64,000 nucleotides of DNA from Candidatus Brocadia pituitae (GTDB taxonomy: Bacteria; Planctomycetota; Brocadiia; Brocadiales; Brocadiaceae). How positions within the stretch are numbered: the stretch's first letter is position 1; every line of letters begins with the position of its first letter. Below the pieces are notes generated by a model that was not told where the DNA came from, did not search any database, and worked only from the letters and a program-made list of their open reading frames with translations. This document shows positions 52,716 through 59,523 of this stretch, piece by piece. The position numbers were made by a program, and so were the translations under genes. Location: assembly GCA_017347445.1 (NCBI GenBank), contig AP021856.1, forward strand, positions 2,178,613 to 2,242,612, given 5' to 3'.

Positions 52716-52784
52716 GGACAAGGTGAAATTTTTTATTGCCATAATGATGTTTGGTAATGGCACCTTTTGAAAGGAGCTTTTGGA

Positions 52785-53324
52785 ATGAAATATAAGAGCA
52801 TATTCGTTATTGCAGTTCTATTTCTTTTCTGTCTGAGTGAACCGGACGGATTCAATTTTACCAATATTTATGGTGATCATAGCCGGGGTAATCATGACGA
52901 TCATGGTGATAGAGGCAACCATGGGATAAGGGGTGCGGTAAGCTCGGTTTTAGGTACAACAGTTTCAATCCTCGGCATGGATATAGATGCAAGCGTTGCG
53001 GAGGTGGTAGTAAAGGATTGTGACGCATTCCTGAGTATTAATGATATAAAAGAAGGCGATATCATAGAGGTAAAAGGGAAGATACAGGATAGTACCTTTG
53101 TTGCCAGTATAATTAAAATAGAGGGCGCTGGAAAACTGGAGGGAACTTTGGAGTCTGTAGGGAACGATTCCATCACACTCCTGGGCAAAGAGATTGATAT
53201 TGCTTCTGCCAAATGCATTAAAGGAAATCTTACGGTAGGGAGAAAGGTCAGGGTTTCCGTGAGGAATTCGGATACCGGTTTAACAGCCCTTGTTGTTCAT
53301 ACTACCCGAATGACGGGGCATTAA
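52785..53324 (+). CDS. Exported DUF5666-type protein
   Basis: A 179-residue secreted or periplasmic protein. The start at ATG 52785 has AAAGGAG nine bases upstream and gives MKYKSIFVIAVLFLFCLSEP, a signal peptide. A His/Asp/Gly-rich segment (YGDHSRGNHDDHGDRGNHG, about residues 30-48) could bind metal. Two repeats of the DUF5666 beta-barrel follow, each with a GTV..VLGxxIDA and a GDxVEVKGK pattern (ILGMDIDASVAEVV; LLGKEIDIASAKCI). Function unknown. It is a single gene with a terminator downstream. Confidence 0.82.
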   Translation: MKYKSIFVIAVLFLFCLSEPDGFNFTNIYGDHSRGNHDDHGDRGNHGIRGAVSSVLGTTVSILGMDIDASVAEVVVKDCDAFLSINDIKEGDIIEVKGKIQDSTFVASIIKIEGAGKLEGTLESVGNDSITLLGKEIDIASAKCIKGNLTVGRKVRVSVRNSDTGLTALVVHTTRMTGH

Positions 53325-53553: not shown

Positions 53554-56313
53554 ATGAATACATCCTGGCATACGATACAAATTAATGAAGTAGCAAAAAA
53601 CCTTGATACCAATACCGATATCGGGTTGAGTCGTGCTGAAGCAGAAAACAGACTGAGAAAATACGGATACAACCAGCTGGAGGAAAAAGAAGGAATATCC
53701 CCCTTCCTGCTCTTTGTGGGCCAGTTTAATAACATTATTGTCTGGATATTAATGGTGGCAGCCATCGTGTCCGGATTTTTAGGAGAAAGGGTCGATGCAT
53801 TGGCCATTCTTGCTATCGTTGTCATTAACGCCGTCATCGGGTTTATCCAGGAATTTCGGGCAGAGAAATCACTTGCAGCCTTACAAAAAATGGCGGCGCC
53901 TTTTTCAAGGGTAATGCGTGACGGCGAGATACACTCCGTTTCTTCCCGTGAAATTGTGCCAGGCGATATTGTGCTGCTGGAGGCCGGGGATTATGTACCG
54001 GCCGATGGTAGAATTTGCTCTTCCTTTAGCCTGAGAACGCAGGAAGCCTCTCTCACAGGTGAATCAACACCAGTCGACAAATCCACAGAACCGCTTCAAA
54101 ATCCTTCTTTACCGATCGCAGACAGAGAAAACATGGTATTTATGGGAACTTCGGTAACCAGTGGTAAAGGGACGTGCATTATGGTAACCACCGGTATGCA
54201 GACTGAATTGGGCAAGATTGCTGGCCTTATTCAGGAAGCGGGAAAAGAGGAGACACCGCTCCAGCGCAAGCTCGAAGTCTTTGGGAAAAAACTGGTCTAT
54301 TTGTGTTTAGGGATCGTGGCAATTGTCTTCCTTTTGGAGTTATGGCGAAAAGACCCGCTCCTGGAGGCATTTCTTACCTCGGTAAGCCTTGCCGTTGCCG
54401 CTATTCCGGAAGGTCTGCCGGCAATCGTGACTATTGCTCTGGCCCTCGGAGTGCAACGTATGGTAAAACGGCATGTACTGATTCGAAAATTGCCTGCGGT
54501 AGAGACGCTTGGATGCGCTACGGTCATCTGCTCGGATAAAACGGGCACGATAACTCAGAACGAGATGACGCTGAGAAAAATATTTGTTAATGGCAAAACC
54601 GTTGACATTTCAGGAACGGGTTATACACCGGAAGGAAATTTTACGATCAGCGGTATGCCGCTATCGGAAATTGATCAACGAATAGTACAGTTTGTTTTAG
54701 GCATGAGTATTTTATGCAATAATGCCCACCTGAAAAAAGACAATCATACGTGGAAGGTTATTGGGGACCCAACAGAGGGCGCCATTCTGACGGCCGCAGC
54801 TAAAGCAAATATATGGAAACAAGCATTATGGGAAAAATTTCCTCTTCTTTCAGAAATACCTTTTGATTCTGAACGGAAGAAGATGTCGACGATCAGAAAA
54901 ACACCTCATTCAGTTCTGCTTGCTTGTGAAAAGGGAGCGGCTGATGTTATTGTAAATGATTGTACAAAGATTTATATCGAAGGGGAACTAAGAGATCTGT
55001 CCGGTGATGATATTCGCGCAATATTAAACGAAAACAACAAGATGGCTGGTGCGGCCCTGCGTGTGCTCGGTGTAGCATTCAAAACTATCGACCCGGAAAC
55101 TATCAAACAATCCACCGATAGCATAGAAAAAGATATGATTTTTCTCGGGTTATTGGCCATGATTGATCCCCCCAGACCTGAGGCTAAAGATGCTGTTGCT
55201 ACCTGTCACACAGCAGGTATAGCAACCGTTATGATTACCGGAGATCATAAAAATACGGCTAAAGCAATTGCAGAGGAGATAGGATTTCTTGACAATAAGA
55301 GAAAGGCCATCGATGGAGCGGAATTGGACACGCTCCCCGATGAAATTTTAGAAAAGGAGGTGTCAGGCATAGCCGTATATGCACGAGTATCTGCCGAACA
55401 CAAGCTCAGGATCATAAAGGCATGGAAGAGACAAGGAGCTGTTGTTGCTATGACGGGTGACGGTGTGAATGACGCCCCGGCCGTAAAAGAGGCGAGTATC
55501 GGCATATCTATGGGCATTACAGGCACCGACGTCACGAAAGAAGCATCCGATATGGTTATAACTGACGATAACTTTGCTTCTATCGTATCAGCCGTTGAAG
55601 AGGGCAGAGGTATTTATGATAATATAAAGAAATCGATTCACTATCTGCTTTCTTGTAACGCTGGTGAAATTTTAACGATGCTCTTTGCCTCAATATTTAA
55701 TCTTCCCCTGCCATTATTTCCTATCCAGATATTATGGATAAATATTGCTACCGACGGATTCCCGGCTTTAGCATTGGGTGTGGACTCAGTAGCGCCTGAT
55801 ATCATGAAAAGGCCTGCCAGGAGATCAACAGAACAGATCATAGACAAAAGTCTTGGCACATTGATTGTATTTCAGGGTTTTATCATAGCTTTGAGCACCC
55901 TTTTTGCATATCTATTTATTTTGTGTTACACGAGCAGTGTAAAACCAGGTTATTTATCTTCCTGGTTTGTTCATGAATTGATTCCCTGCTGCATGGGTGG
56001 GCAACTCACCGGCGATCTTGAACGGGCAAGGACGGTTGCCTTTTGTGTGATGGTTATTTCCCAGCTATTCAACTCTTTTAACTGCCGGAATACCAGGCGC
56101 TCATTATTTGAAATTGGCATTTTTACCAATACAAAACTCTTGTTGGCAACGGGACTTTCATTGACCATGCAACTCGCTATTGTCTATCTTCCTTTTTGCA
56201 AAGAAGTCTTTAAGGTGACGCCTTTAGGATTGAAGGATTGGATGATCGTCTTTGGTTTTTCCTCTCTTGTTTTTATCATTATGGAAATAATAAAGTTGTG
56301 TAAGAAGGGGTGA
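53554..56313 (+). CDS. P-type Ca2+-transporting ATPase (P2A, SERCA/PacL-like)
   Basis: ATP-driven cation pump of 919 residues in a membrane. Motifs: TGES (168-171), phosphorylation site SDKTGTIT with Asp328, [15 protein letters not shown], and an N-terminal actuator region. The ion-binding residues of the SERCA Ca2+ sites are kept: PEGLP in M4 (285-289), NAGE in M5, and NIATDG in M6, which favours calcium over other cations. The C-terminal membrane half is complete. The stop codon lies five bases before the ATG of the octahaem cytochrome, an unusual coupling for a calcium pump. Confidence 0.92.
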
Positions 56314-56318
56314 TTTTG

Positions 56319-58001
56319 ATGAAAAAACTGCTTATTGTTGCTATCTGTTTCGTCTCATTATTTATGTATCCTTTTGTGTCGTCTGCTCATCACGAAGGCC
56401 CAGGATACATTCCGTCCCTTTTTAATGAATACACTCAAACAAATTTAATATATTACACGAACTATGCGTCAGGAATGCCCGATGATTGGCTTGCCAGCAG
56501 GTATTCAAAGACAATTTCGGATGTGGACCACATAAGACCCGTCTTTGACGGGCAGGTATCAGGAGATACCATTCCGGATACCTCTCGTTCCGTTCTGAGT
56601 GAACAAACCCAGGTGTGTCTGCTATGTCACAAGAAATCCACTCCTGGCATTGTAGAGGACTGGCTTACGAGCAGGCACTCAAAAATAACTCCGGACCTGG
56701 CTCTCTCAAAGCCTGTCCTGGAACGGCGGATTTCGAGCGATACAATTCCTGAAAATTTCAGATCCGTAGTCGTTGGCTGCTATGAATGTCACGGACAGAA
56801 TGCTTCAGCCCACAATGATAACTTTGAACACTTTGGATTTCGGATCAATGTGATTGTTTCACCGAATGACTGCCGTACCTGTCACCCTGTTGAGGCTGAT
56901 CAATTTGCCATGAGCAAAAAGGCACACGCACTGGACAACCTTCAAAAGAATCCCCTGTATCATACGATGGTTGAAACCGGACTCAGTTCAAAAGGAAGCA
57001 GCGATGGTACCATCATCTCCATTACTGCAACAGAAAACTCCAGGGCTGAAAGCTGTTATAGCTGCCATGGTACTGAGGTCACGGTGAATGGAATGAAAAA
57101 GGTTTTTACTCCTTCGGGAGACATCGAGGTTCCTAACCTCACCAACTGGCCTAATCAGGGGGTAGGAAGGATTAATCCCGATGGGAGTTCCGGGGCGTGT
57201 ACTGCCTGTCATCCGCGGCATAGTTTCTCCATAGAAATAGCCAGGAAACCCTATACGTGTTCCCAATGTCATCTCGAGCCGGACACTCCTGCATTTGAGG
57301 TTTACGAAGAAAGCAAGCACGGGAATATTTTTAATTCGAAACAGCATGAATGGAACTGGAACAACGTCCCCTGGAGGATTGGCAAAGATTTCCAGGCCCC
57401 GACCTGCGCCACATGCCATAATAGTCTCATAACCACTTCTGATGGCAGGGTTGTTGCGCAAAGAACTCACGATTTTGGCTCACGCATGTGGGTCAGGCTG
57501 TTTGGGCTCCCTTACTCCCATCCGCAACCAAAGAGTGGAAAGACGTATGAAATCAAAAATAAGGATGGGCAGCCTCTCCCGGTGACATTTACCGGTGAAC
57601 CAGCTTCCGAATATCTCATTAGCAATGAGGAGCAAATGCAACGTCAAAACGAAATGAAAGCGATATGCCGCGGTTGCCATAGCACCGACTGGATCAACGG
57701 GCACTTTGCCAAGATGGACATTACCATTGCTGAAACAGACAAGGCAGTCCTGGCGGCAACCCAGTTACTTCAAAAAATGTGGAACGCGGGATTGGCAGAT
57801 CCATCGAATCCCTTCGATGAAATCATTGAAAATGATTGGGTAAAGCAATGGCTTTACTATGCCAATTCGGTACGATTTGGTTCGGCTATGGGAGGGTATG
57901 ACTACACTACGTTTAAAAATGGCTGGCTGGAGTTGACAGCAAATTTGCGTAAGATGCATGATTTTATCGAAACTCATATCAATGTAAGTATTGATAAATA
58001 G
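56319..58001 (+). CDS. Octahaem cytochrome c, hydroxylamine oxidoreductase (HAO)-like
   Basis: Exported redox protein with eight CxxCH haem sites (Cys100, 154, 185, 246, 294, 314, 363 and 450, numbered from ATG 56319). The signal peptide is KKLLIVAICFVSLFMYPFVS. The segment VYEESKHGNIF, then PTCATCHNS and THDFGSRMWVR, is the pattern of the HAO family, which oxidises hydroxylamine or hydrazine, or reduces nitrite, in nitrogen-cycling bacteria. Whether the cross-linking Tyr of true HAO is present (region GGYDYTTFKNGW) cannot be settled by eye. Residues 55-92 and 113-150 are a duplicated segment (DDWLASRYSK.../EDWLTSRHSK...); only the second copy leads into a CYECH haem in the usual place, while the first is followed by the CLLCH haem. 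GGGG lies eight bases before the ATG. Confidence 0.9.
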   Translation: MKKLLIVAICFVSLFMYPFVSSAHHEGPGYIPSLFNEYTQTNLIYYTNYASGMPDDWLASRYSKTISDVDHIRPVFDGQVSGDTIPDTSRSVLSEQTQVCLLCHKKSTPGIVEDWLTSRHSKITPDLALSKPVLERRISSDTIPENFRSVVVGCYECHGQNASAHNDNFEHFGFRINVIVSPNDCRTCHPVEADQFAMSKKAHALDNLQKNPLYHTMVETGLSSKGSSDGTIISITATENSRAESCYSCHGTEVTVNGMKKVFTPSGDIEVPNLTNWPNQGVGRINPDGSSGACTACHPRHSFSIEIARKPYTCSQCHLEPDTPAFEVYEESKHGNIFNSKQHEWNWNNVPWRIGKDFQAPTCATCHNSLITTSDGRVVAQRTHDFGSRMWVRLFGLPYSHPQPKSGKTYEIKNKDGQPLPVTFTGEPASEYLISNEEQMQRQNEMKAICRGCHSTDWINGHFAKMDITIAETDKAVLAATQLLQKMWNAGLADPSNPFDEIIENDWVKQWLYYANSVRFGSAMGGYDYTTFKNGWLELTANLRKMHDFIETHINVSIDK

Positions 58002-58095
58002 TTCTTTAAAAATGTATTGACATTTTTTTTAGAATATTTACAATAAGTAAAATTTATTTTCTTAACCTTTTTGATTTGAAGGAGGGTAGGAGCGT

Positions 58096-58629
58096 ATGGT
58101 AAACAAGAAAATTTTTGGGATTGCTGCATCTGTAATTATAGTAGTTGGCATAATAATAAGCCAAATAGGTAATTTAACTTATGCCCAGGAAGTACACAAA
58201 CACAGTGATAAGGCAATGGCACCAGAGCATACAACTGGGGAAGAGTTCGTATGTCCTTCCTGTAAACAAGTACGCGTGAGTCCTGTAAAAGGAAAGACAC
58301 TTGCAACTATGCCTATGGTTTGCCCGGATTGTAAACATGAGATAGGGGAACTTTCAGTTCATCATTGTGACTCTTGTGGAAAAGACGTCCTTTCATGCGT
58401 GATGTGCCAAAAAGCCTCAGCCGAGCTTAAAATGGAAGCAAAATGTCCCAAATGCAAGGAGGTGCGTGTAAGGCCTATTAAAGGACATACGTTAGCAAAA
58501 TGGGAAATGAAGTGTCCTGATTGCAAACACAAGACGAAAGAGTGGGACGTTCAACACTGCGACAAATGTGATGTGGACTTCCTGGCCTGTCCGCTTTGCG
58601 AAAAGGAACAAGCGAAATCAAAAAAATAG
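58096..58629 (+). CDS. Exported protein with duplicated four-CxxC zinc-ribbon domain
   Basis: A 177-residue protein with a signal peptide or N-terminal membrane anchor (IAASVIIVVGIIISQIG). Two copies of a 52-residue domain follow, at 53-104 and 117-168, each with four CxxC pairs: CPSC, CPDC, CDSC, CVMC in the first and CPKC, CPDC, CDKC, CPLC in the second. Spacing is identical, so it arose by duplication. Sixteen cysteines outside the cytoplasm could hold metals. GGAGG lies upstream. No family recognised. It follows the octahaem cytochrome on the same strand, separated by 94 bases, and could serve metal or haem handling; that is inference. Confidence 0.8.
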   Translation: MVNKKIFGIAASVIIVVGIIISQIGNLTYAQEVHKHSDKAMAPEHTTGEEFVCPSCKQVRVSPVKGKTLATMPMVCPDCKHEIGELSVHHCDSCGKDVLSCVMCQKASAELKMEAKCPKCKEVRVRPIKGHTLAKWEMKCPDCKHKTKEWDVQHCDKCDVDFLACPLCEKEQAKSKK

Positions 58630-58655: not shown

Positions 58656-58697
58656 AGGCTTACGCAGCCATCTATGGTTGCGTAAGCCTCTTGTTTT
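58656..58697 (+). terminator. Strong intrinsic terminator
   Basis: AGGCTTACGCA pairs perfectly with TGCGTAAGCCT, the inner GCCA/TGGT extends the stem, and CTTGTTTT follows. It ends the transcript of the 16-cysteine protein and probably of the ATPase and cytochrome genes upstream. Confidence 0.88.
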
Positions 58698-58776: not shown

Positions 58777-59523
58777 TTAATGTGCAGAAGGCGCACCATG
58801 CGCTGAGGGCATGGCTTTCTCCGCCTCGTATTTTTTGAATTGATTAAACTCCTCTTCAGCCTCGGCGCTCATTCCTTTTAATAAATAGACAACACCGAGA
58901 TAATTGTGTGCAGTTCCTAACTTTGGATCGAGTTCTAATGCTGTCTTATGTGCAGCGATGGCTTCATCTAACTTTTTCTGCTTACCATAGGTTAATCCAA
59001 GCTCGTTGTAGGCTGTGGCAAGGTTAGGATTTATGGACAAGGCCTTTTTTTGCATCTTTACAGCGTCTTCAAATTGCTCATTCATACGATAGACAACGCC
59101 TAAACTATAATAGATCATGGGATCCTCCGGCTTCAATTCTAATTGCTTCCGGTATATTTCACCCGCCTTGTCAAATCTCCCCTGAGTATAGTATGCCTTG
59201 CCTAGCTTTTCGTACGCATTCATCATATTTGGATCGAGTTCTAAAGCCTTCTGCCATGCCGCAATCGCTTCATCAAAACCGCCCTTTTTAATACTTTCCA
59301 CTCCGAACTGGTAATACTCTGCAGCGGTCATCTTTTCCGGTAGGACGACTTCTTTCTTTCCTTCCTGGGTATCAGAACCTTCGTTGCTCACAACCTCCTG
59401 ATTTGTGACTTCAGCATTTTCTGATGTCTCTTTTTTGCTGCAACCATAAACGGATAAACCCACAACGATACTGGCAATTGCTACCAATGGCAAATTCTTT
59501 CCTGTTATTCCCATCTTTCTCAT
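58777..59523 (-). CDS. TPR lipoprotein
   Basis: A 248-residue exported protein with about five TPR units (for example AYEKLGKAYYTQGRFDKAGE, AYNELGLTYGKQKKLDEAIA). The N terminus VAIASIVVGLSVYGCSKKE ends in a likely lipobox with Cys28. A charged linker rich in Glu precedes the repeats. The ATG at 59523 and the one at 59514 are both possible; GGAG sits ten bases before the second. It is shorter than the TPR protein at 45476 but of the same style. Partners are unknown. Confidence 0.85.
   Translation of the reverse strand: MRKMGITGKNLPLVAIASIVVGLSVYGCSKKETSENAEVTNQEVVSNEGSDTQEGKKEVVLPEKMTAAEYYQFGVESIKKGGFDEAIAAWQKALELDPNMMNAYEKLGKAYYTQGRFDKAGEIYRKQLELKPEDPMIYYSLGVVYRMNEQFEDAVKMQKKALSINPNLATAYNELGLTYGKQKKLDEAIAAHKTALELDPKLGTAHNYLGVVYLLKGMSAEAEEEFNQFKKYEAEKAMPSAHGAPSAH

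Follow-up and report, generated by a model that had tools for sequence, protein, structure and literature searches.

An exported-looking 16-cysteine protein of anammox bacteria as a candidate soft-metal carrier

What might an exported-looking protein with 16 cysteines do beside an octahaem cytochrome? The gene lies in a window of 64,000 nucleotides of Candidatus Brocadia pituitae (the whole stretch of DNA that was analysed), where the initial annotation had described an exported protein of two 52-residue domains with identical CxxC spacing, adjoining a multihaem cytochrome, and had suggested metal storage, redox buffering or haem-site assembly, with constant occurrence beside HAO-like genes as a point to check.

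Gene, export signal and cysteine units

The gene occupies 58096..58629 on the forward strand, with an ATG at 58096 and a stop codon ending at 58629, and encodes 177 aa; the longest ORF overlapping it on the opposite strand has 86 aa. Both the coordinates and the repeated pattern of the initial annotation were confirmed. The cysteine step pattern 3,20,3,12,3,7,3, that is, CxxC-19-CxxC-11-CxxC-6-CxxC, is present twice: at residues 53, 56, 76, 79, 91, 94, 101 and 104 of unit 1 (residues 53-104; 58252..58407, forward strand) and at 117, 120, 140, 143, 155, 158, 165 and 168 of unit 2 (residues 117-168; 58444..58599, forward strand). The units share 30 of 52 residues, and even a single such unit appeared in none of 20,000 composition-preserving shuffles of the protein. 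In an alignment of 38 family proteins, picked from 52 distinct ones with fragments and three-unit proteins excluded, 15 of the 16 cysteines are invariant: all eight of unit 1 and seven of unit 2, the exception being C165, which is kept in at least 90%. Every cysteine of the protein falls in a regular CxxC pair, in the knuckle-like context CPxCK and CDxCG. Zinc or iron are the usual metals of CxxC pairs of this kind.

Judged by sequence, the export signal is convincing. Residues 1-30 (58096..58185, forward strand) form a predicted signal peptide with a basic n-region and a hydrophobic core, followed by ..YA|E or similar; here cleavage is likely after ..LTYA and before QE, and the structural model has a helix at residues 5-28. 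By simple sequence measures, the basic n-region and core were found in 38 of the 38 aligned members and a small-residue cleavage site in 36, the latter with a loose pattern whose match, for some rows including the window protein, lies inside the core and not at ..TYA|Q. By the same measures, the family has the features of Sec-type signals (basic n-region, hydrophobic core and small-residue cleavage site), in keeping with the export first proposed.

No Pfam or NCBIfam model reached its curated cut-off with the 16-cysteine protein. The sub-threshold Pfam matches were to Cript (PF10235) and Zn_ribbon_6 (PF07191), which scored best (21.3 bits, with the cut-off at 25.5, and 20.3 bits, with the cut-off at 25), and to HypA and DZR_2 (PF18912); at E up to 1, there was no match to a thioredoxin-type model or to the CusF model (PF11604). 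The double zinc ribbon families PF07191, PF18912 and PF10235 have paired CxxC knuckles likewise, whereas our protein lies below their curated cut-offs, looks exported and repeats the unit. Known members of these families are mostly cytoplasmic or nuclear. Profile matches in the PDB were to zinc fingers and zinc ribbons, the best of them to the zinc-finger array 2i13 (E 1e-6); these were caught by CxxC content and were not taken as kinship. AlphaFold2 modelled the full-length protein at a mean pLDDT of 65.9, with values of about 71-88 for the ten-residue blocks of unit 2, and gave the units a largely beta structure at moderate confidence; the model of a lone unit (pLDDT 66.5) was poorer than the same unit within the full-length model. 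Foldseek returned no match at E 1e-3. The VIA-align scores, up to Z 4.8, do not rise above what chance can give; Cren7 came first, and the others included NrdR and zinc ribbons of the RPB9 type, to which unit 1 bore a weak structural resemblance (Z 3.4-4.7). From the CxxC knuckles, we infer that the unit is a double zinc-ribbon-like domain.

The gene probably has its own transcript, despite the preceding ATPase/cytochrome pair that overlaps by 4 bp, because it is flanked by a promoter-like site and a terminator-like hairpin. The former, TTGACA-16-TACAAT (58017..58044, forward strand), is sigma-70-like with an 11/12 match, by consensus only, and ends about 50 bp before the start codon; many family genes of that genome family likewise have a site beginning with TTGACA upstream. 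The hairpin (58656..58689, forward strand), with 15 pairs, a 4-nt loop and a T-rich tail, begins 27 bases past the stop codon and is weak on its own, since shuffles averaged 0.9 such sites. Convergent with the gene, at 58777-59523 on the reverse strand, is a TPR protein with a sub-threshold match to MamA (131 bits, cut-off 200).

A Brocadiales family among metal-export genes

Of 59 Brocadiales (anammox) genomes, 42 encode a relative of the protein at E up to 1e-3. A 40-row profile of the unit, whose search covered Planctomycetota, matched 29 of 392 genomes at E up to 1e-4, of which 26 were Brocadiales and three were weak. The weak matches outside Brocadiales (G211, G261 and G311; G060, G063, G097 and G211) were all treated as probable chance matches or generic zinc ribbons; in two of the five stretches inspected for them (L111-L115), namely L112 and L113, the protein has CxxC pairs but not the spacing of the unit. 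A scan of genome contigs gave 18 loci, all titled Brocadiales or Planctomycetota without a finer name; it used the patterns of one sequence, which distant relatives in other phyla could escape. The plasmid collection held no family match at E 0.01. Within the 392-genome Planctomycetota sample, the family has so far been convincing only in Brocadiales. Its members hold one, two or three units; in one three-unit member (L072:8107-8868), the first two units are near-identical, as after a recent unit duplication. All 17 family-carrying genomes tested match hydrazine dehydrogenase, 16 of them above the cut-off, which marks the carriers as anammox bacteria; hydrazine dehydrogenase also occurs in genomes that have no family member (G002, G034, G035, G036, G037, G039, G046, G047 and G052). 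No description of the family was found in the literature as far as it was covered, including the available parts of PMC7558416 and PMC4429474. We regard these proteins as an unnamed family, seen so far in one order, with a role of a known kind.

The commoner neighbours of the family, compared with the cytochrome, are metal exporters. A metal-handling gene (P-type ATPase, CusA/CusB, YHS or HMA) lies within five same-strand ORFs of 36 of 44 family genes. By class, these neighbours are P2A ATPases (20), CusB (14), YHS (13), CusA (12) and P1B ATPases (6, in four loci); the classes are motif-based, and the P1B count misses a CPC-motif ATPase at L110 that escaped the classifier. The 44 genes come from 39 loci that are related by descent, with a 47-aa fragment (L078) and three 2-kb stretches (L088, L089 and L121) excluded. 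Five of the eight genes without a metal neighbour are near contig ends. The window's own genome (G000) holds only four PF00122 matches in 4.08 Mb, plus nine PF00873 pieces, so chance nearness should be rare.

Three arrangements could be distinguished. The first, as in the window, is P2A ATPase, octahaem cytochrome and 16-cysteine family gene. In the second, a P2A ATPase is followed by the Cys protein, CusB and CusA (G005 and G020), with variants in which the Cys protein precedes CusB and CusA (G001) or follows CusA (G025 and G028). The third, in family f2, runs P1B ATPase, Cys protein(s), OEP, CusB and CusA (G033, G040, G045 and G042), an order that G049 keeps as far as CusB. The P1B ATPase of this arrangement has a CPC motif, and its best solved relatives are copper ATPases. 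Elsewhere, a Penicillinase_R-type regulator and an M48-like membrane peptidase lie upstream of the Cys gene (G018) or downstream of it (G012). The P2A ATPase ORFs of genus g6 (L065, L067 and L086) have 1167 aa, about 240 aa more than elsewhere, and a radical-SAM-like protein (CNxxCDHCYA) adjoins the P2A ATPase in several loci (L052:11095-12129, L061:12084-13145 and L066:14409-15470).

The neighbouring CusA has its best match in E. coli CusA, with 856 bits compared with 551 for ZneA. Methionines aligned with residues 573, 623 and 672 of E. coli CusA, which we take to be its Cu/Ag Met triad, are kept in all 13 anammox CusA proteins compared, namely 11 full-length ones beside the family and two more from the genome of the window, with fragments below 900 aa excluded. 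A Cu/Ag methionine triad in CusA is described in PMC7558416. The CusB neighbours bear heavy-metal-binding segments of the CxMHP type. The Cus context recurs within the family: on a 35-row tree of the two-unit regions, whose bootstrap is not fully settled, the 13 Cus-linked genes require five changes, at least three of them forced by well-supported branches, and none of 500 label shuffles was as low as five; an octahaem label on the same tree is also clustered relative to shuffles, with six changes, at least four of them forced.

Comparison with CusF and a proposed function

The gene order in E. coli is cusC-cusF-cusB-cusA, and in the second and third arrangements the family gene sits where CusF lies. 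At the level of the family, though not for the window copy, the Cys gene is found in a CusF-like position among CusC-B-A genes, 14 of the 44 genes having CusB no more than five ORFs away. A search with PF11604, which detected E. coli CusF in the control, found no free-standing CusF in any of the 59 Brocadiales genomes. Two PF11604 matches (G036 and G039) belong to proteins some 950 aa long, around which no Cus genes were recognised, and the idea that these lineages keep CusF in place of the Cys protein was dropped for that reason. Presence of the family and of CusA does not coincide throughout: at E 1e-150, several family carriers have no CusA match (G014, G021, G053 and others) and the reverse holds for G010 and G037, a mismatch that is in part due to divergence from the query, as G048 has CusA beside its family gene and yet no such match.

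CusF (PF11604) of E. coli cusCFBA resembles the family in being small, exported and set among copper-pump genes, and the hand-over from ATPase to CusB/CusA proposed below is alike. Its ligands are Met, His and Trp. It differs in that it is not Cys-based and is a five-stranded OB-like barrel (PMC7558416), and blastp found no significant similarity between it and the 16-cysteine protein (best E = 9.8 over 8 residues). Two other exported copper proteins invite comparison. CueP has another fold and is not known to have repeats of a CxxC unit. In Salmonella, it uses Cys/His and works with CopA-type ATPases (PMC7558416). The copper storage protein Csp1 is exported, rich in Cys and binds Cu(I) by thiolates, as is proposed here for the Cys family. 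Csp1 carries a Tat signal (PMC7558416) and is a four-helix bundle, compared with a Sec-like signal in the family and CxxC units that are modelled, at moderate confidence, as rich in beta structure; the window protein's signal segment, MVNKKIFG..., is without RR and therefore lacks the twin-arginine feature of Csp1.

On balance, we favour the reading that the protein is a secreted carrier or sink for a soft metal, most likely Cu(I), in the anammox p-side compartment, with the metal binding, the identity of the metal and the direction of transfer all inferred from sequence and gene context. Each unit, as a double zinc-ribbon or knuckle-like domain, would hold metal with its eight thiolates, and the protein would take up metal that a P-type ATPase has pumped out of the cytoplasm. 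Where a lineage has CusCBA close by, it would then pass the metal to CusB/CusA, doing the job of CusF with an unrelated domain. Against this reading count the zinc or iron usual for such CxxC pairs, the Ca/Mn-type P2A ATPases as the commonest neighbours, the eight family genes that lack a metal neighbour, the lack of Cus genes around the window copy and the uneven match between family and CusA. Thiolates could presumably stay reduced in anoxic p-side compartments, which would let a Cys protein fill that place. In E. coli, copper exported by a P1B ATPase passes to CusF and on to CusB/CusA, and mutants in cus are at their most sensitive when oxygen is absent (PMC7558416). More tentatively, CusF might have been replaced in anammox bacteria by a Cys-thiolate, zinc-ribbon-like Cu(I) chaperone, with the P2A ATPases of Brocadiaceae recruited to the same soft-metal export route. 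The p-side would then be the anoxic periplasm or the anammoxosome lumen, and a zinc-ribbon-type domain would be exported there.

Somewhat doubtful, in our estimate, is the reading that the exported protein binds a different soft metal (Zn, Cd or Fe), as sink or chaperone, and serves general metal efflux rather than copper. The sub-threshold matches to Zn_ribbon_6, HypA and DZR_2 and the weak NrdR/RPB9-type resemblance of unit 1 agree with it, as do the P2A ATPases beside 20 of the 44 genes, which to our knowledge are not known copper pumps; on the other hand, the neighbouring transporters whose type can be read, the copper-type P1B ATPase and CusA with its Met triad, are those for Cu/Ag.

The family would also illustrate that a domain of zinc-ribbon-like build can work outside the cytoplasm. 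Copper is both a nutrient and an inhibitor in anammox reactors. The export route for copper in these bacteria seems little described, our literature search having found nothing on point, and the family at the CusF position offers a concrete gene to test and a possible marker of metal stress.

The octahaem cytochrome and the copy in the window

The multihaem cytochrome does adjoin the gene, as first described. It is an octahaem protein of the HAO superfamily (56310..58001, forward strand; 563 aa, 8 CxxCH), whose start overlaps the stop codon of the ATPase gene by 4 bp, an overlap shared by the conserved P2A-ATPase/octahaem gene pair. Its best PDB match is 4qo5, presumably the octahaem cytochrome of Ignicoccus hospitalis, with 465 bits, the other solved HAO-type proteins scoring at most 84 bits. 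HAO/HDH-type matches occur in all 19 genomes searched, which makes a general co-occurrence with HAO uninformative; the comparison was made with the octahaem gene, found at E up to 1e-80 in 25 of the 59 genomes. Of the 59, 24 genomes have both genes, 18 have only the Cys protein, one (G046) has only the octahaem gene, and 16 have neither.

It is improbable that the protein is an accessory of this cytochrome, either delivering metal to it or keeping the haem-site Cys reduced during maturation. In favour of such a role, a cytochrome with at least seven CxxCH lies within five same-strand ORFs of 13 of the 44 family genes (within two in 12 cases), and the two genes are within 1 kb of each other in 15 of the 24 genomes that have both (G000, G001, G003, G004, G009, G011, G015, G019, G021, G022, G026, G027, G029, G030 and G032). 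In another three (G006, G007 and G008), the two genes fall on separate contigs, a Cys gene lying near a contig end. However, 18 of the 42 carriers lack the octahaem gene and G046 has the octahaem gene only, the two are apart in G013, G018, G020, G025, G028 and G031 (G020, G025 and G028 belonging to genus g11), and the Cys gene has promoter-like and terminator-like sites of its own. For example, in G031, the cytochrome and ATPase genes remain together and seven ORFs separate them from the Cys gene. These seven, in the block L126:2110-12956, are perhaps V-type ATPase genes by their look.

The link to the cytochrome is real but local, and metal export is the steadier context. A constant partnership with a neighbouring octahaem gene, by which the cytochrome could have been the key to function, is not what the genomes show: only 24 of the 42 carriers have that gene, and the arrangement varies among them. 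Nor was the opposite outcome found, in which every homologue would be a cytoplasmic protein with no relation to cytochrome genes. Of the initial interpretation, then, export, the metal-site look of the CxxC pairs and metal handling as the best reading survive, and the haem-enzyme partner does not hold as a rule. The case shows that a cytochrome neighbour by itself misleads about function. A thiol-disulfide redox or disulfide-rich structural role is most improbable: CxxC pairs double as redox motifs and the protein looks exported, but all of its cysteines are in regular CxxC pairs of knuckle-like context, its neighbours are metal genes, and thioredoxin-type Pfam models gave no match at E up to 1.

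For the copy in the window, which lies beside a P2A ATPase and the octahaem cytochrome and away from CusCBA, the carrier or sink role would follow from the family as a whole. The ATPase, two genes upstream (53554..56313, forward strand; 919 aa), is of the Ca/Mn-like P2A type by Pfam and by its PEGLP, NAGE and NIATD motifs, and its nearest solved structures are Ca-ATPases. Ca and Mn, the usual ions of P2A ATPases, are poorly suited to thiolates. This pump may be the partner of the window copy, in which case its ion would be other than the usual Ca/Mn. Alternatively, the protein could act in trans for the CusCBA of its genome (L117, at G000:2.00 Mb), which has no Cys gene alongside, just as no Cus gene lies near the window copy. 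Upstream of the ATPase, at 52767-53324, is an exported-looking DUF5666 protein, with related ORFs (cluster c15) in L053, L055 and L060.
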